Shown here: piece after piece, positions 2,339-16,803 of the stretch | Position numbering within the stretch: the stretch's first letter is position 1 | How the letters are laid out: the number at the start of each line of letters is the position of its first letter | NCBI GenBank assembly: GCA_001464695.1 | Contig: LNDQ01000079.1 | Span: 62,001 to 126,000, forward strand | DNA from: Betaproteobacteria bacterium Ga0077523 | GTDB lineage: Bacteria > Pseudomonadota > Gammaproteobacteria > Burkholderiales > Ga0077523 | Reading direction: 5' to 3' | Length of the DNA stretch: 64,000 bases | Program-made: the position numbers and the translations under genes | The notes under the pieces: generated by a model | The model's input: only the letters and a program-made list of their open reading frames with translations | Databases searched by the model: none | What the model was told of the DNA's origin: nothing

Positions 2339-2404
2339 CTATTCCGCCGCCAGGACCCGGTTCTTGCCCTGTACCTTGGCCTGGTACATGGCCTTGTCGG
2401 CGCG
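2339..2404 (-). pseudogene. Displaced duplicate of the 3' end of the GGDEF gene
   Basis: This minus-strand stretch encodes the same last 21 residues as the intact cyclase gene ending at 2486 (RADKAMYQAK through NRVLAAE), followed by TAG. The two copies differ at nine of 66 positions, all synonymous or within the stop codon (TAG here, TGA in the gene). The copy has no start codon. It is separated from the intact gene end by a palindromic element. It looks like the former gene terminus, left behind when an element supplied a new one, or the reverse. Confidence 0.7.
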
Positions 2405-2479
2405 ACCGCGGAGGGAGGAGCAGTGCCTTCCGGCCTCAGGCCGGAAGGTGCGACCCCGCAGCGGGATGCAGGGCCGACA
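2395..2479. mobile_element. Palindromic insertion element, copy A (at the GGDEF gene 3' end)
   Basis: A short non-coding element. Its core, about 2408-2465, contains a 23-base palindrome at 2426-2448 (CCTTCCGGCCT and its complement), preceded by GGAGCAGTG and followed by TGCGACCCCG. The same core recurs at 11601-11654. TGTCGGC (2395-2401) and GCCGACA (2473-2479) form an outer inverted repeat whose sequence is that of the host gene codons. There is no coding capacity, so a mobile origin is inferred from the repeated core and the flanking gene-end duplication. Confidence 0.6.
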
Positions 2480-2485
2480 GCGAAC

Positions 2486-4225
2486 TCACTCTGCAGCCAG
2501 GACTCTGTTCTTGCCCTGCACCTTGGCCTGGTACATGGCCTTGTCGGCCCGTTGAAAAAGGGATTCGTCCGTATCCCCCTGCCGGTACTCGGCCACCCCG
2601 GCACTGAAGGTGATCAGCAGCCGCTCGTTGTTGTGCAGGAAGAAGCGGCGGGTCAGTTCGCGCTGCAGCCGTTCGGTCACCTTCACGGCTTCGCTCTGGC
2701 CGGTCTCCGTCAGGATGATGACGAACTCCTCGCCGCCGAAACGCGCGATGACGTCCGTGGGCCGGACGGTGTGCTTGATGACCTTGGCGAGGTGCACGAG
2801 CGCCGCATCGCCGGCGGAATGCCCGTAGGTGTCGTTCAGGCGCTTGAAGTTGTCCACGTCCAGCACTGCCACGCACAGCGGTTTCTTCGAGCGCTTGGCG
2901 CGGGCGATCTCGCGCTCCATCGCGTCTTCCATGCCGCGGCGGTTCAACGCGCCGGTCAGCTGATCCTCGCGTACCTGACCGCTCACGCGTTCCAGTTCGC
3001 CTTCCAGTTCGTGCACCCGCTGTTCGGCCACCTGGGCCTGCTGGCGCGAGGTCAGCAGTTCGTCGCGCGAGCGCATCATGTCCACCTGCATGCCGCGGGT
3101 GTCGGACATCAGCTCGTCGATCAGGGTCTTGAGGGCGTCCAGGTTGTCGGTGGCGCTGATGCGATCGGCATACCGCTCGATCTTGCCGTGGTATTCGACG
3201 GTGTTCTCGGTCACCTCGCCCAGGCGTTCGACGAACACGGCGAGCAGGCTCTTCAGCGTGGTCTTGGCCTCGCGCAGACTCGATTTCAGCTGGGTCTGCT
3301 TGAAGATGACTTCCTTGAAATGGCGCTCGGCGTCGCGAATGGTGCGCAACTCCACAGGCTGGTTGACGAGATCGCGCAGGATCGCGATCTGGCCGTGCAC
3401 CCACTGGTCGTCGTCCACCAGTTCGCCCAGGTTGTTCACCACCAGGCCGAGCAGCCGCATCAGGTTGTCGAGCAGCTCCTCGTCGGGTTCGACACGCAGT
3501 TCCACCTTGAGCCAGAACTGCTTCAGTTGGGCCGACAGGCGGGTCCAGTCTTCCGATTTCAGGCTCTCTCGCGCGCGCCGCGCCAGTTGCATGACCTCGG
3601 AATAGATTTCCGGATACCGATCGATCCGGGCGCCGACGCCGTTCTCGAGAATGCTGGCCACCAGCTCGTTGATCTCGGCGACCGGTCCCGATTCCACGGA
3701 CACGCCGGGCTGAGCGGCCCCCGAAGCCGCAGCCGAGGCGAGCACCGCCGAAGCCTCCTCAGTCCAGGACCGCATGAGGCCCTTCAGCTTGGCGCCGAGC
3801 TGTGCATCGCCGCCAAACGCGATCAGCAAGCGGTCGAGTCCCTCGCGTTTGCGGGCGGGCGTGATGCCCCGATGCTGGAGGTCGAGCTGGCGCAGCAGCT
3901 CGCGCAGCACCGGCCCGAGGTCGCCGGCGGCCGGCCGGTCGCGGTTGAGCGCCGCCTCGAGAGTCTTGGCGAATTCGTCCCAGGCGTGCTGTTCGGCCGC
4001 GCGCGCCAGGTTGCGCATCGTGACCTCGATCCCGTTGGCCTTCCCGGCACCCAGCCCGCGCAGTGCAGCCGCCAGGCGGCCGTTGCCGGTCTCGTCCCGC
4101 GGCTCCGCTCCCGTAATCTCGGCGTAGATGCGCTGATAGTTCTGCGGCGTGGGCGGCATGCGCCGCGTGGCCAGCAACTTCAACGTCTCGCGCGCTAGGT
4201 CGGTGGGATTGTTGGTGTCGGCCAT
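2486..4225 (-). CDS. Diguanylate cyclase (GGDEF domain) with a long helical N-terminal region
   Basis: Likely makes cyclic di-GMP from two GTP. The 579-residue protein has an N-terminal region of about 410 residues, mostly helical, that I do not recognise as a named sensor domain. A probable coiled coil at about 375-410 leads into a C-terminal GGDEF domain. The catalytic motif is GGEEF at residues 497-501. An RPTD inhibitory I-site lies exactly five residues upstream, so product feedback is expected. DVDNFKRLNDTYGH supplies the metal-binding Asp. No membrane segment is evident, so it is probably cytosolic. Placed between flgB and flgA with a sigma-28-like promoter, it may link motility to c-di-GMP. 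Its last 21 codons are duplicated just downstream across a palindromic element. Confidence 0.9.
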   Translation of the reverse strand: MADTNNPTDLARETLKLLATRRMPPTPQNYQRIYAEITGAEPRDETGNGRLAAALRGLGAGKANGIEVTMRNLARAAEQHAWDEFAKTLEAALNRDRPAAGDLGPVLRELLRQLDLQHRGITPARKREGLDRLLIAFGGDAQLGAKLKGLMRSWTEEASAVLASAAASGAAQPGVSVESGPVAEINELVASILENGVGARIDRYPEIYSEVMQLARRARESLKSEDWTRLSAQLKQFWLKVELRVEPDEELLDNLMRLLGLVVNNLGELVDDDQWVHGQIAILRDLVNQPVELRTIRDAERHFKEVIFKQTQLKSSLREAKTTLKSLLAVFVERLGEVTENTVEYHGKIERYADRISATDNLDALKTLIDELMSDTRGMQVDMMRSRDELLTSRQQAQVAEQRVHELEGELERVSGQVREDQLTGALNRRGMEDAMEREIARAKRSKKPLCVAVLDVDNFKRLNDTYGHSAGDAALVHLAKVIKHTVRPTDVIARFGGEEFVIILTETGQSEAVKVTERLQRELTRRFFLHNNERLLITFSAGVAEYRQGDTDESLFQRADKAMYQAKVQGKNRVLAAE

Positions 4226-8018: not shown

Positions 8019-9239
8019 ATGGACTCACTGATCGCGGCCGCCGCACGCGCCCTGGCCACCGGGGACGCGATCGGCGCACTCAAGTGGGTTGCCCTGCGCG
8101 ACGACCCACCCGCGCTGGCGCTGCGCGGCATCGCGATGGCCCAACTCGGCGAACTCCCACGCGCGCGGGAACTGTTGAGGAATGCTGCCCGCGGGTTCGG
8201 CGCCCACGAGGAGCTGGCGCGGGCACGCTGCATCGTCGCCGAAGCGGAAGTGGCGTTGGCCATGCGCGACCTCGGTGGGTCCGCGCGTCCCCTGGCGGCG
8301 GCGGCGACCACACTGGAAGCGCGCGCCGATCACGCCAACTCGCTGCAGGCGCATCTCATCGGGGCGCGACGGCTCCTGCTACTCGGTCGTCTCGACGAGG
8401 CGGCAACCGCGTTGGCGCACCTCGATGGGCGTTCCCTGCCGCCGTCGCTGGCTGCGGTGGCTGGCCTGATCACGGCCGAACTGGCGCTGCGATCGTTGCG
8501 GATCGACCCGGCGCAGGCGGCTCTCGCCCGCGCTCACGAAGCAGCCCAACGCGCACGCGTACCCGCGCTGCTCGCGGAGGTCGTGGAGGCATGGGCAGCG
8601 CTCGATCGTCCTGCAGCCCGGCGCATCGACGCGCATGGGGAACACCCGATTCGTCTCGCCGAAGTCGCCGCGCTGCTTGCGTCGGGCGCGCTGGTGGTCG
8701 ACGCCTGCCGTCGCGCTGTTCGCGCCGGTGCCGAGACGGTACCGCTCCTGCGCCGGCCCGTGCTGTTCGCGCTGGCGCGTGCGCTCGCCGAAGTCTGGCC
8801 AGGGGATGTCGATCGGGAGACCCTGATCGCACGCGCCTTTCGAACACGCCGCCCGGATGAGACGCATCGAGCGCGCCTGCGGGTCGAGATCGGCCGTCTG
8901 CGCACTCTCGTCGCGGCCGCAACACGCATCGAGGCCACGTCGCGCGGTTTCGTGCTCGAGCCACACAATGCGGATACCGTCGTCGTCCTGGCACCACCCA
9001 TCGATGGCGATCAGGCGTCGCTGGTGGCACTGCTCGCCGACGGTGCCGCCTGGTCGACCTCGGCGCTGGCACTGGCCCTCGGGGCCAGTCAACGCACCGT
9101 CCAGCGAGCCCTGGTCGAGCTGGAGCAAGCCGGGCGGGTACGCTCGATCGGACGTGCTCGGGCGCAGCGCTGGCTGGCACCGCCCCTGGCAGGATTCACG
9201 ACGATCTTGTTACTCCCCACTGCATTCCCGCTTGCGTAG
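8019..9239 (+). CDS. Winged-helix transcriptional regulator with helical-repeat N-terminus
   Basis: A 406-residue soluble protein. The first 250 residues are Ala/Leu/Arg-rich paired helices resembling TPR or activator-domain repeats. The RARLRVEIGRLRTLV stretch with ATSRGFVLEP near 290-320 resembles the C-terminal winged helix of OmpR/SARP-type domains. A second winged-helix segment (WSTSALALALGASQRTVQRA, then LVELEQAGRVRSIG) lies at about 345-378. It starts a same-strand run with the propeller, DUF899 and membrane genes and probably regulates them; this is inference. The 287 bases before it hold the motC promoter on the other strand and no further gene. Confidence 0.7.
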   Translation: MDSLIAAAARALATGDAIGALKWVALRDDPPALALRGIAMAQLGELPRARELLRNAARGFGAHEELARARCIVAEAEVALAMRDLGGSARPLAAAATTLEARADHANSLQAHLIGARRLLLLGRLDEAATALAHLDGRSLPPSLAAVAGLITAELALRSLRIDPAQAALARAHEAAQRARVPALLAEVVEAWAALDRPAARRIDAHGEHPIRLAEVAALLASGALVVDACRRAVRAGAETVPLLRRPVLFALARALAEVWPGDVDRETLIARAFRTRRPDETHRARLRVEIGRLRTLVAAATRIEATSRGFVLEPHNADTVVVLAPPIDGDQASLVALLADGAAWSTSALALALGASQRTVQRALVELEQAGRVRSIGRARAQRWLAPPLAGFTTILLLPTAFPLA

Positions 9240-9284
9240 AGTCCGCGTCGTGCAGTGCCGATCCGAGGCGCAAACAGGAGCCAG

Positions 9285-9965
9285 ATGATGACCCCCAAAA
9301 CCAGTAGCGACGGACACCAGGTACCGGCGCGTCCCGCCGAGATCGTGCGCGAGTACGGCCCCTTCGCCGGGTCCGACAGCATCGCTGGCGTCACCCACGA
9401 CGGGCGCCTGGTCTGGGCTGCCACCGGACCGAAACTGGTCGCGTTCGACCCGCAGAGCGGCGAAACCGAACGCACGATCGAAGTCGGATGCGATGCCGGC
9501 ACTGCCTTCGACGGAAAATTCCTCTATCAGATCGCCGAAGCACGCATCGACAAGATCGATCCGGCCACCGGCGACATCGTTGCATCGATTCCGGCCCCCG
9601 GCCACGGCAGCGACTCGGGCATGGCCTGGGCCGAAGGCAGTCTGTGGGTTGGGCAGCACCGCGATCGCAAGATCCACCAGATCGACCCCGCGACCGGCCG
9701 GATCGTGCGCACCATCGAGTCCAATCGCTTCGTCACCGGCGTGACCTGGGTCGAAGGCGAGCTGTGGCACGGCACCTGGGAAGGCGACGAGAGCGAGATT
9801 CGTCGCATCGACCCCGACAGTGGCGTCGTGCTCGAGCGTCTCCAGATGCCGCCCGGCGTCAACGTGAGCGGGCTCGAGTCCGACGGCGCCGACCTCTTCT
9901 ACTGCGGTGGCGGAGGTAGCGGCAAGGTCCGCGCGGTGCGACGCCCCAGCCGGGGCGGATCGTGA
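9285..9965 (+). CDS. Beta-propeller protein, glutamine cyclotransferase-like
   Basis: A 226-residue protein made of repeated blades with the pattern I-(D/A)-P-A-T-G followed by strands (KIDPATGDIVASI, QIDPATGRIVRTI, RIDPDSGVVLERL). This resembles glutaminyl cyclase/SMP-30-type propellers. No signal peptide or catalytic residue can be assigned, so enzyme activity is not claimed. Start at the first of two adjacent ATGs, with AGGAG nine bases upstream. It lies 45 bases after the regulator gene. A sugar or quinoprotein-like binding role is possible but unproven. Confidence 0.65.
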   Translation: MMTPKTSSDGHQVPARPAEIVREYGPFAGSDSIAGVTHDGRLVWAATGPKLVAFDPQSGETERTIEVGCDAGTAFDGKFLYQIAEARIDKIDPATGDIVASIPAPGHGSDSGMAWAEGSLWVGQHRDRKIHQIDPATGRIVRTIESNRFVTGVTWVEGELWHGTWEGDESEIRRIDPDSGVVLERLQMPPGVNVSGLESDGADLFYCGGGGSGKVRAVRRPSRGGS

Positions 9966-10119
9966 CCAGTCGCCCCTAGAGCCTCGCAATTCGGCCCGCA
10001 CGCCGGGCCCGTCAGCACCGTCCTGATTCGAGCATCGTCGATCGTCGATGCCCGCAGGGAGGGTTGTACCCGCCGCGCGCAGCGCAGCACTTTGAGCCAC
10101 CCGCCGAGGAGCACACACC

Positions 10120-10893
10120 ATGAACGCCACCGTCGACCACGCACACGCCACCAACCACCCCGTCGTATCCATGGACCAATGGATCACCGAGCGCACGGCG
10201 CTGCTCGCGCAGGAAAAGGAACTGACGCAATTGCGCGACCGGATCGCCCGTGAGCGTCGCGCACTGCCGTGGGTGCGTATCGAGAAGAACCATGTCTTCG
10301 ACACGCTCGAAGGCAGACGCTCCCTCTCCGATCTGTTCGAAGGGCGCCGCCAACTGGTAGTGCAGCACTTCATGTTCGCACCGGGTTGGGAACAAGGCTG
10401 CCCCAGTTGCTCGTTCATGGCCGACCACATCGACGGCGCGCGGCCACACCTGGCGCAACGCGACCTCACATTCCTGGCGGTCTCGCGCGCGCCGCTGGTC
10501 GACATCGAGCGTTTCCGGAACCGCATGGGCTGGCAGTTCAAGTGGGTATCCTCCCACGGCAGCGATTTCAACTACGACTTCGGCGTCAGTTTCAGAATGG
10601 AGGAACGCTCCAGTGGCAAGGTCCGCTACAACTACACCTTGCAGCCATTCCCGCACGAGGAAGCGCCGGGCATCAGTGCGTTCTATCAGGATGACACGGG
10701 CGCCGTGTTCCACACCTATTCAACCTACGGGCGCGGGGTGGAGTTGATGATGGGCGCGTACGACCTGCTGGACATCGCGCCCCGGGGACGCAACGAGGAG
10801 GACCTCGCCTATCCGATGGAATGGGTGCGTCATCACGATCGCTACGAGCTGAACCCGGTTGCGAAGGGATCATGCTGCGGCGGGCATGACTGA
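10120..10893 (+). CDS. DUF899 family thioredoxin-fold protein
   Basis: 257 residues matching the DUF899 pattern: an N-terminal helix region (WITERTALLAQEKELTQLRD), then RRALPWVRIEKNHVFD. Next comes a thioredoxin-like core with MFAPGWEQGCPSCSFMADHI near residue 91, whose CPSC pair is in the place of a redox motif. A conserved HTYSTYGRGVE stretch follows, and a C-terminal GSCCGGHD tail adds two cysteines. Function is unknown for the family; a role in redox or arsenic/metal stress has been guessed only from context elsewhere. AGGAGC precedes the ATG. The 154 bases before it show no gene. Confidence 0.85.
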   Translation: MNATVDHAHATNHPVVSMDQWITERTALLAQEKELTQLRDRIARERRALPWVRIEKNHVFDTLEGRRSLSDLFEGRRQLVVQHFMFAPGWEQGCPSCSFMADHIDGARPHLAQRDLTFLAVSRAPLVDIERFRNRMGWQFKWVSSHGSDFNYDFGVSFRMEERSSGKVRYNYTLQPFPHEEAPGISAFYQDDTGAVFHTYSTYGRGVELMMGAYDLLDIAPRGRNEEDLAYPMEWVRHHDRYELNPVAKGSCCGGHD

Positions 10894-10922
10894 GCCCGCA
10901 GCATCCCGCCAGGAAAACCAAA

Positions 10923-11552
10923 GTGGTAGATGCGTGGCCGTGGCTGGCGATTGCCGGCCTCGGCGCCCTGCACGGACTGAACCCGGCTACCGGCTGGATG
11001 TTCGCTGCAGCGTGCGGCCTGCAGGCCCGTGACAGTGCGCAAGCGCGGTACGCCCTGTTGCCCATTGCTATCGGGCACTTTGCGTCGATCGCGATCGTGG
11101 TATGTGCCGTCACTTGGGGTCAGTCCATGGACCGCACCCTGATTCAAGGCGTGGCCGGCGCCCTGCTCATCGGCGTCGTCCTGCTGCGCTTGCTGTTCGG
11201 TGCCAGCCGGCGCACGTGGGTCGGCGCGCATTCAGGTCACGCGGGCATCGCGCTTTGGTCTTGCCTGATGGGTACGACTCATGGGGCCGGACTGATGCTC
11301 GTGCCCGCACTCATGCCGCTTTGCCTTGCTGATGGTGCAACGCGTGCGGTTACCGCATCGGGTGCTCTGGTGCCGGCGCTCGCTGCGGTCGGCATCCATA
11401 CCGCGGCAATGCTCGTCACGACCGGCGGGATCGCCAGTGGCGTATGCCGCACCATCGCGATTCAGCCGCGCCTGCTCAGCGGCTCAGCAGCACACCACGC
11501 CTGGACCGCAACCCTGGCCGTCACCAGTGTGCTGGTGTTGGCCCTGCGCTAA
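10923..11552 (+). CDS. Hydrophobic integral membrane protein of unknown function
   Basis: 209 residues with about six predicted membrane helices (about 5-22, 42-62, 69-87, 105-125, 134-158 and 187-205). The start is a GTG 29 bases after the DUF899 stop, with the weak ribosome site AGGAAA. His residues sit in or near helices (GALHGLNPATG, GHFAS, GTTHGAGL), which could bind metal or haem, but no family is recognised. Co-directional with the DUF899 gene, so joint function is likely. Confidence 0.6.
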   Translation: MVDAWPWLAIAGLGALHGLNPATGWMFAAACGLQARDSAQARYALLPIAIGHFASIAIVVCAVTWGQSMDRTLIQGVAGALLIGVVLLRLLFGASRRTWVGAHSGHAGIALWSCLMGTTHGAGLMLVPALMPLCLADGATRAVTASGALVPALAAVGIHTAAMLVTTGGIASGVCRTIAIQPRLLSGSAAHHAWTATLAVTSVLVLALR

Positions 11553-11564
11553 TCGAATGGGTTG

Positions 11565-11602
11565 GCTAGTTCTTCGCGGTCCACTGCTTCATGCGCGACC
11601 GC
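11565..11602 (-). pseudogene. Displaced duplicate of the 3' end of fliA
   Basis: These 38 bases are identical to 11678-11715, which holds the last codons and stop of fliA. The copy encodes SRMKQWTAKN plus stop but has no start. It lies downstream of the gene, beyond a palindromic element like the one at 2395-2479. Confidence 0.8.
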
Positions 11603-11669
11603 GAAGGGCGGAGCAGTGCCTTCCGGTTTACCGGAAGGTGCGACCCCGTAGCGGTCGGAAGTCGCGCAT
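11591..11669. mobile_element. Palindromic insertion element, copy B (at the fliA 3' end)
   Basis: The core at 11601-11654 matches element A: GGAGCAGTG, then a CCTTCCGG-TTTA-CCGGAAGG hairpin at 11619-11638, then TGCGACCCCG. Outside it ATGCGCGAC (11591-11599) and GTCGCGCAT (11661-11669) form an inverted repeat that copies fliA codons. The element has no coding capacity. It may also terminate fliA transcription. A mobile origin is inferred. Confidence 0.65.
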
Positions 11670-11678
11670 CTCGTGGTG

Positions 11679-12410
11679 CTAGTTCTTCGCGGTCCACTGC
11701 TTCATGCGCGACCGCAGGCGGGCGACAGCCTGGCTGTGCAATTGGCACACGCGCGATTCGCTGACTCCCAGGACCTCGCCGATTTCCTTGAGGTTCATCT
11801 CCTGCTCGTAGTACAGGCCCATGACGAGCTTCTCGCGATCCGGCAGCGCGCTGATGGCCTGCACCAGGTTGCGGCGGAAGCCTTCGTCTTCGAGCGCTTC
11901 GAGCGGCCCACGCTGCGGATCGTTGCCGAGGTAGGAATCGAAGAAGTCGCTGTCCTCGGACTCCTGGAAGTCCTCGTAGTGCAGCAGCTGGTAGCCACGC
12001 GCATCGAGCAGCATGTGCTGATATTCGTCGAGCGGCACCTGCAGGTGCTCGGCGAGCTCGGTCTCGCGCGGCGCGCGTCCGTACTGCTGTTCGAGCTGGG
12101 ATACCGCGCTTTCGATCTTGCGCAGGTTCTTGCGCACGTTGCGCGGCAACCAGTCGGCCTGGCGCAGCTCGTCCAGTATCGAGCCGCGGATGCGCTGGAT
12201 CGCGTAGGTCTCGAACTGCGCGCCCTGCGTGTCGTCGAAGTTCTTGGCGGCATCCAGCAGGCCGATCAAGCCGGCCTGGATGAGGTCATCCACTTCGACA
12301 CTGGCCGGCAGCTTTGCCATGAAGTGATACGAGATACGCTTCACCAACGGCGCCAGTTCGTTGACGATGGCGTCGAGGTCGCGATTCGCGATGAAGGCGG
12401 GATTGACCAT
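11679..12410 (-). CDS. fliA: RNA polymerase sigma-28 factor FliA
   Basis: Sigma factor for late flagellar genes, inhibited by FlgM. The 243-residue product starts MVNPAFIANRDLDAIVNELA. Region 2 is seen as VEVDDLIQAGLIGLLDAAKN with YAIQRIRGSILDELRQ, region 3 as RKIESAVSQLEQQYGRAP, and region 4 as LPDREKLVMGLYYEQEMNLK with GVSESRVCQLHSQAV. The ATG overlaps the flhG stop (TGATG), so it is the last gene of flhB-flhA-flhF-flhG-fliA. Promoters matching its consensus stand before motC, flgM and the GGDEF gene. The terminal 38 bases are duplicated downstream. Confidence 0.97.
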   Translation of the reverse strand: MVNPAFIANRDLDAIVNELAPLVKRISYHFMAKLPASVEVDDLIQAGLIGLLDAAKNFDDTQGAQFETYAIQRIRGSILDELRQADWLPRNVRKNLRKIESAVSQLEQQYGRAPRETELAEHLQVPLDEYQHMLLDARGYQLLHYEDFQESEDSDFFDSYLGNDPQRGPLEALEDEGFRRNLVQAISALPDREKLVMGLYYEQEMNLKEIGEVLGVSESRVCQLHSQAVARLRSRMKQWTAKN

Positions 12411-16566: not shown

Positions 16567-16803
16567 CAGGGCCGCCCCAGGAGGGCCGGCCCCCTTGGGA
16601 GGAAAGGCCGATGGGGATTCGGGGCGGTCGTCATCTCAGCCCGCGCCGGGCCGCCCCAAGAGGGCTGGCCCCCTTGGGGGGAGAGGCCGAAGGCCTTTCG
16701 GGGGGGCGTCACCTCAGTCCTCGCCGGGCCGCCCCAAGAGGGCTGGCCCCCTTTGGGGGGAGAGGCCGAAGGCCTTTCGGGGGGGGCGTCACCTCACCCC
16801 TCG
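16567..16803. repeat. Three tandem copies of a 78-base GC-rich repeat between flhB and flhA
   Basis: Units begin near 16567, 16647 and 16725. Each contains GGGCCGCCCCA, GGCTGGCCCCCTTGGGGGG and AGGCCGAAGGCCTTTCGGGG, i.e. nested palindromes, and ends with a CTCA. Units two and three are nearly identical; unit one has diverged. The flhB stop codon lies in the last CTCA. A related single copy is at 24845-24919 and a degenerate one at 56370-56431. The repeat splits an otherwise continuous operon. Confidence 0.85.

Follow-up and report, generated by a model that had tools for sequence, protein, structure and literature searches.

Phage 21 and e14 integrate at the 3' end of icd, where the gene is restored by a second gene end with silent differences, which displaces the native one. 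The guide sequences of IS200/IS605 elements such as IS608 lie in the flank beside a hairpin and pair with the target over about 4 nt. Integron attC sites fold into a hairpin with an inner asymmetry and a variable tip. Microhomology-mediated restart and the correction of quasi-palindromes are established processes. REP sequences and BIMEs are, in the parts of PMC3733652 that describe them, short imperfect palindromes with a conserved foot and a variable tip that lie at the 3' ends of genes and form inverted dimers and, with their flanking DNA, tandem clusters. The window analysed here, a stretch of 64,000 nt from Betaproteobacteria bacterium Ga0077523 (genome G000), holds two gene ends that are duplicated beside a hairpin of about 70 nt. 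This hairpin is a member of a REP-like family of structured hairpins, and no description matching the family or the duplicated gene ends was found in the literature searched. All functions given below are predicted from sequence.

The gene that we take to be fliA (sigma-28) is located at 11679..12410 on the minus strand and encodes 243 amino acids plus a stop codon from a predicted start codon. Its 3' end is the inner copy of a 38-bp direct repeat (11678..11715, minus strand), which covers the final fliA codons, the stop and one base. The outer copy (11565..11602, minus strand) is identical, as the preliminary description had reported, and the repeat scores 38 against 13 for the best of 100 shuffles. 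This score rejects a chance duplication, which had already been called unlikely, and further repeats at rho, folE2, fdxA, an ilvD-like gene and the start of kdsA point the same way. The hairpin element (11588..11662, plus strand) is a covariance-model match of 78 bits with the form GGAGCAG-stem-TGCGACCCC. A segment within fliA, X1 (GTCGCGCAT, 11704..11712, minus strand), recurs beyond the stop as an inverted copy, X' (ATGCGCGAC, 11661..11669, minus strand). A second copy of X, X2, can be read from the sequence in the far flank of the hairpin (11591..11599, minus strand), where the outer fliA end starts. On the minus strand, the stop at 11679 is followed by a few bases, X', the hairpin, the second copy of the codons and stop, and the end of a convergent gene, and the two copies are 113 bp apart. 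The same arrangement is found at fliA in G004 and in the MAG JAIEQG01, presumed to be G005, and similar ones occur in genomes of 7 to 40 contigs, which excludes an assembly artefact of a single MAG. The fliA gene of G010 is followed by a single decayed element and has no duplicate.

The region behind fliA in the window (8019-11552) encodes several genes between fliA and the presumed motA, the last of which is convergent to fliA. A similar stretch follows fliA in G004 and G005, and in seven more distant relatives a motA-like gene starts at most about 360 bases after fliA. Further along the window (16569-16803), a palindrome-rich unit of 79 bp (GGGCTGGCCCCCTTGGGGG...) is present in three tandem copies between two large ORFs of the flagellar cluster.

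The second duplicated end belongs to a gene of 579 amino acids (2486..4225, minus strand), presumed to encode a GGDEF domain, which terminates in the inner gene end. The inner copy (2496..2548) and the outer copy (2349..2401), both on the minus strand, form a 53-bp repeat with 3 mismatches; the outer copy is close to the element-free gene end of G005. The hairpin (2395..2472, plus strand) is a covariance-model match of 81 bits, and the parts follow one another as at fliA, with X1 (GGGCCGACA, 2542..2550, minus strand) within the gene, X' (TGTCGGCCC, 2471..2479, minus strand) beyond the stop, and X2 (GCGCCGACA, 2395..2403, minus strand), as read from the sequence, at the start of the outer end with 7 of 9 bases as in X1. 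The copies are 147 bp apart and differ at 6 of 20 codons, all six differences being synonymous. In G011 this gene has a single element and no duplicate. The two window hairpins are 86% identical over 65 bases, in agreement with the earlier matching of their cores (11601-11654 and 2408-2465), and they are the only strong copies found in this genome of 4.7 Mb, which is 87% complete. The covariance model identified two weaker composite copies with 150 of 4729 candidates scored. Composite repeats with two inverted hairpins (GGAGGAGGGGCCCC variant) were seen elsewhere in the window's genome at L131 and L133 (contigs C39 and C135). The idea in the preliminary description that the reading frame is preserved holds only insofar as the inner copy completes the gene; the copies themselves are separated by 113 bp at fliA and by 147 bp at GGDEF. 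Readthrough to the outer stop is rejected because not every observed spacing (113, 145 and 147 bp) is divisible by three.

The hairpin consists of an outer stem, an invariant foot of GGAGCA / TGCGACC and a variable apical stem, and its consensus reads outer stem, AGGGCGGAGCAG, variable apical stem, TGCGACCCCG, outer stem. RNAalifold predicts 18 pairs, 11 of which show two-sided changes. In a structure-fitted alignment of 118 distinct rows, pairs are formed in 85.1% of cells; covariation scores 0.412, whereas shuffles score 0.121 and slid partners no more than 0.081. A pattern search matched 12 of 200 genomes of the order, one of them (G060, L043) through an apparent chance match in a coding region. 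A covariance model built from 19 copies gave matches at E 1e-5 in 38 of 300 Burkholderiales genomes, for each of which 16 candidates were scored, and within the window's family it matched 8 of 12 genomes at E 0.1. Each matching genome has 1-12 matches at E 1e-5, numbers that are lower bounds because so few candidates (16) were scored per genome, and the genome set consists mostly of drafts and offers few orthologue pairs. Inverted pairs about 20 bp apart are present at many loci, and G004, G060, G196 and G101 contain arrays that have at least two cores; contigs of G005 and G004 end within arrays.

No Rfam family matched the window above its gathering threshold, and the five relaxed matches in eight loci do not overlap the element, so a known RNA family is rejected. 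The element contains no integrase gene at the window loci, where the insert is too short to code. Carriage by a plasmid, phage or virus is likewise rejected, since phages and viral contigs gave no match to the element and plasmids gave a single weak match, on a Streptomyces plasmid, covering 37% of the query. Three further arrangements were observed. Two elements 10 kb apart in G001 (L119 at C22:74732 and L126 at C22:64606) have about 35 bp of left flank in common, and one therefore seems to have been copied with part of its neighbour's flank. At L154/L171 of G101, a two-hairpin stretch is present three times, 141 bp apart, in an open frame beside an Oxidored_q2 gene, and the element may therefore be translated there. 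In G083 (L060 and like loci), the hairpin lies inside a larger repeat with the ends GCTGTTGAAAAA...TTTTCAACAGC, which looks as if a MITE took up the hairpin.

For a survey of gene-end duplications, 82 loci were picked by hand from 124 model matches (85 sources, E <=0.001), with second matches at one place omitted and the loci not all independent. A direct repeat scoring at least 17 spans the element at 14 of them, with lengths of 27-108 bp; four of the 14 are composite, tandem or weak (L154, L168, L120, L176). The remaining 68 have no clear direct repeat at this score, which addresses repeats longer than a few bases, and at least two of the 68 hold strongly diverged copies (rho of G176 and the ilvD-like gene of G277). 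The fliA end is duplicated in G000, G004 and G005 and the GGDEF end in G000 and G004. In families other than the window's, duplications are found at the ends of rho (G104, G060, G196 and G176, and decayed in G219), folE2 (G241), fdxA (G101 and G099) and the ilvD-like gene (G277), and at the start of kdsA (G267); rho of G058 has a 160-bp tandem repeat lacking the canonical core. Pfam supports folE2 (GCHY-1) and the ferredoxin (Fer4, DUF3470) and finds an ATP-synt_ab domain in both rho genes tested; rho, ilvD, kdsA and pntB are names that we assume. Element-free relatives exist for rho (six g85 genomes and others), folE2 (seven), fdxA, GGDEF (G005) and the ilvD-like gene (G025). At duplicated 3' ends the element lies behind the stop codon in a single orientation relative to the gene, and copies in the opposite orientation also stand behind stop codons that show no duplication (pntB-like gene of G010, L056). 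The duplication of a gene end beside the hairpin is recurrent and not general.

Likeness between the two copies stops at the stop codon in 7 of 9 cases, with 5-8 of 24 bases identical beyond it, in a set that counts fliA twice (two genomes) and does not include the G060, G196 and G004 arrays, in which the units extend past the stop. This is also the pattern for orthologous gene ends. Likeness continues past the stop in fdxA of G101 (16/24 bases) and in rho of G104 (24/24), where the repeat is 108 bp long and both copies include 33 bp after the stop as well as X'. Over the coding part compared, the copies are identical in fliA of G000, fdxA of G101 and rho of G104, the last also beyond the stop. 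Most codon changes that separate the copies are silent (24 of 30, where 20% is the expectation; p 2e-12 against random change). This set omits rho of G176 (7 synonymous, 1 nonsynonymous) and the ilvD-like gene (13/1), both found through peptide likeness, as well as the first against the third copy of G004 (3/3) and fdxA of G099 (3/5); the synonymous share with these added is 50/66. The rho gene of G060 contributed just the 12 codons conserved in two of its copies, and neither the frameshifted half nor the third copy, in which a stop is present, entered the count; nor did the decayed rho of G219.

The outer copy looks like a gene end that was once in use before it was joined, because a copy that was never used should lack the silent bias. 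Some outer copies are decaying through amino-acid changes or frameshifts, namely fdxA of G099 (3 synonymous, 5 nonsynonymous), rho of G219 and half of rho of G060. At two loci the outer copy is followed by the same bases as the gene end in a relative that lacks the element there (G277 compared with G025, and G000 compared with G005). The GGDEF outer end of G000 differs from G005 at 2 of 63 bases and the inner end at 9 of 63; in rho of G176 it is the inner copy that looks native. An excess divergence of the inner end was withdrawn, as it is not significant with adequate gene-body stretches: the ilvD-like inner end gives p 0.71, 0.19 and 0.22 against 120, 240 and 480 nt of gene body and p 0.017 against 60 nt alone, GGDEF gives p 1.0 to 0.07 (60 to 600 nt), and folE2 gives p 0.21.

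The gene and the element are connected by X', which follows the stop, adjoins the hairpin and is an inverted copy of X in the last codons at most duplicated ends. A perfect inverted repeat of at least 9 bp is present at 12 of 21 element-bearing ends and at none of 25 element-less orthologous ends (p 8e-6), the 21 being partly picked by eye and including four rho ends with no canonical core (G101, G115, G058 and G219) that were partly chosen for a visible X/X'. Element-bearing rho of G238 (5 bp) and the pntB-like gene of G010 (7 bp) had been left out, as had three element-less rho ends (6-7 bp); with the omitted ends added, the counts are 12/23 and 0/28. The mean longest repeat is 9.0 at element-bearing and 6.24 at element-less ends. 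When the comparison is limited to canonical cores and one per lineage, 7 of 10 ends reach 9 bp (p 2e-5). Across 79 loci, the gene-side arm pairs upstream over a greater length (mean 8.15) than the far arm does downstream (mean 6.71), although many of these arms belong to the second hairpin of composite elements.

X' mostly tracks X between species in rho, fdxA (G101, G176), folE2 and GGDEF. In rho, GACCTGGAAGCC is matched by GGCTTCCAGGTC in G104 and ACCTCGAGGCG by CGCCTCGAGGT in G060, with the same amino acids encoded. In all five gene groups (5/5) a species' own X/X' pairs are longer on average than cross-species pairs, although single cross pairs equal or exceed them, as in GGDEF (10 against an own value of 9). 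The predicted fold of rho of G104 pairs X with X' and is no more stable than shuffles (z -0.38), and in the best fold of window positions 2400-2556, at the GGDEF end, X1 and X' are unpaired. The outer gene end starts at or near X, and X2 matches X exactly at fliA, at 7 of 9 bases at the window GGDEF end and poorly at folE2, rho of G104 and rho of G176.

We favour, with a probability of about 0.4, microhomology-mediated joining of the hairpin flank to the gene end carried by a sister or allelic chromosome, and we infer the joining process and the reason for X' from the patterns above. A fork or break would stall at the hairpin and, where X2 matches X, would restart by microhomology at X, with the sister chromosome or incoming allelic DNA as partner. 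Restart on the sister would copy the gene end and the element again and produce tandem arrays, such as those at rho in G060 and G196. Restart on an element-free allele would append the native gene end as a second one, together with the sequence downstream of it, as may have occurred at fliA, GGDEF, folE2 and the ilvD-like gene. Deletion between the two gene ends could remove the element again, which may be the history of GGDEF in G005. The duplication would then be a by-product of recombination at the element. Tandem slippage alone is rejected; it accounts for the arrays and not for the native downstream sequence behind the outer copy. The origin of X', and the reason for its match to X (pairing in mRNA or DNA, or templated correction), fall outside this explanation. 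Several observations count against it. The array units (G004, G060, G196) and rho of G104 pass the stop, and plain local duplication therefore explains them as well. Also counted are the native-looking inner copy in rho of G176, the decaying outer copies, the poor X2 at folE2, rho of G104 and rho of G176, the GGDEF fold lacking X1:X' pairing, and the rho G104 fold that is no better than shuffles.

The tracking of X by X' could instead reflect selection on RNA, with pairing of X and X' across the stop and the core hairpin protecting or regulating the mRNA 3' end and the duplication incidental. The core covariation is consistent with this, as are the X' changes that follow synonymous changes in X in rho (G104/G060), folE2, fdxA and GGDEF, and the retention of X/X' at rho of G101 and G115 where the canonical core is gone. 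We nevertheless consider it somewhat unlikely, given that one species' X can pair equally well with another's X' (the GGDEF cross pair of 10), that the window GGDEF fold leaves X and X' apart, that rho of G238 has the element and no X' near the stop, and that templated correction of imperfect palindromes would yield the same pattern. Transposition with long, variable target-site duplications (38-108 bp), in which strands are nicked far apart, the hairpin is inserted and the copies diverge, would produce the identical coding copies of fliA (G000), fdxA (G101) and rho (G104) and the identity past the stop in the last. An insertion process that targets gene ends had been suggested in the preliminary description: the involvement of gene ends extends to other genes and families, and the target-duplicating insertion itself is not well supported. 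The copies do not appear to be regular target duplications, because 68 of 82 loci lack a repeat scoring at least 17, the copies cease to be alike at the stop codon in 7 of 9 cases and the differences are mostly synonymous although the outer copy is not the gene's end; arrays with several cores also argue against it. Core copies with short fixed target duplications or none had been named beforehand as contrary evidence, and the 68 loci largely answer to this. Such transposition is accordingly judged unlikely.

If the hairpin moves with its gene end, a mobile cassette made up of a replacement gene end, stop, X' and hairpin might enter at X, with X' as a base-pairing address in the manner of the guide in IS200/IS605 single-strand transposition. 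Such a protein-free unit of about 110-150 bp would be directed by X' to the same conserved gene (rho, fdxA and others) across bacteria, and after its entry the native gene end would be preceded by another; if true, the element could be addressed while encoding no protein itself. The start of the outer end at or near X, the match of X' to X per gene and mostly per species, the native bases that follow the outer copy in G277 and G000, the presence of the element at rho and fdxA in several families and the single orientation at duplicated 3' ends all fit a cassette. Each part of this proposal, from the addressed unit to the second gene end that it would leave, seems improbable to us: some units are local copies (rho of G104), the inner end does not stand out from the gene body as significantly more foreign, opposite-orientation copies stand behind stops with no duplication (pntB-like gene of G010, L056), and we know of no enzyme for it. 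Mobilisation as a REP element by a RAYT transposase would supply an enzyme, and the search for one, proposed in the preliminary description, covered Y1/RAYT genes. The palindromic form, the position at gene ends and the inverted dimers agree with a RAYT, Y1 proteins above the cut-off are encoded in 14 of 18 genomes, and in G140 (L107, ~2825-2900) two GTAG palindromes GTAGGAGCGAATTCATTCGCGACCCC lie by a Y1 gene with a foot, GGAGC/GCGACCCC, that resembles the element's. The case is weakened and now very improbable, because 0 of 30 Y1 loci (from 33 matches in 18 genomes, which are incomplete) are accompanied by a consensus copy, the sole matches nearby having up to 3 mismatches, because G004, G037 and G046 bear the element with no Y1 match at E 0.001, and because no invariant GTAG tag is found among the 19 copies aligned.

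Should microhomology-mediated joining hold, a common bacterial repeat would preserve the trace of recombination at gene ends between alleles with the element and alleles lacking it, and a non-coding hairpin would be tied to coding sequence by an inverted repeat that tracks synonymous changes. It becomes testable how REP-like palindromes lacking a known transposase reach gene ends, and whether codons near the stop are constrained by pairing with the 3' UTR.

Among known systems, the element shares with REP and BIME, as portrayed in the relevant parts of PMC3733652, the imperfect palindrome with conserved foot and variable tip, the place at gene 3' ends, and the inverted dimers and tandem clusters with flanking DNA; the gene-end duplication and X/X' pairing seen here are not features of that portrayal. 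It differs from the GTAG and CGTC families in its consensus, its greater length and the lack of a GTAG or CGTC tag in 19 copies, and from REP sequences served by a RAYT in having no consensus copy beside 30 Y1 genes and perhaps in copy number, its 1-12 matches per genome being a lower bound. Unlike a transposon that duplicates its target, it has no direct repeat of fixed length at each copy, and unlike an intrinsic terminator it shows no T run by eye after the window cores. It is like attC in being a folded hairpin with an inner asymmetry and a variable tip, and unlike it in having no AAC/GTT boxes among the invariant positions and in a unit that carries a gene end rather than a gene. As in IS200/IS605, the flank adjacent to the hairpin can pair with a target sequence, here over 8-12 nt that differ at each locus and with no transposase found. 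A silently different second gene end may be common to this element and to integrative elements at 3' ends such as phage 21/e14, either copy here being a candidate for the foreign one, and the difference lies in the unit, which is non-coding, measures about 110-150 bp and belongs to one hairpin family that serves many genes.
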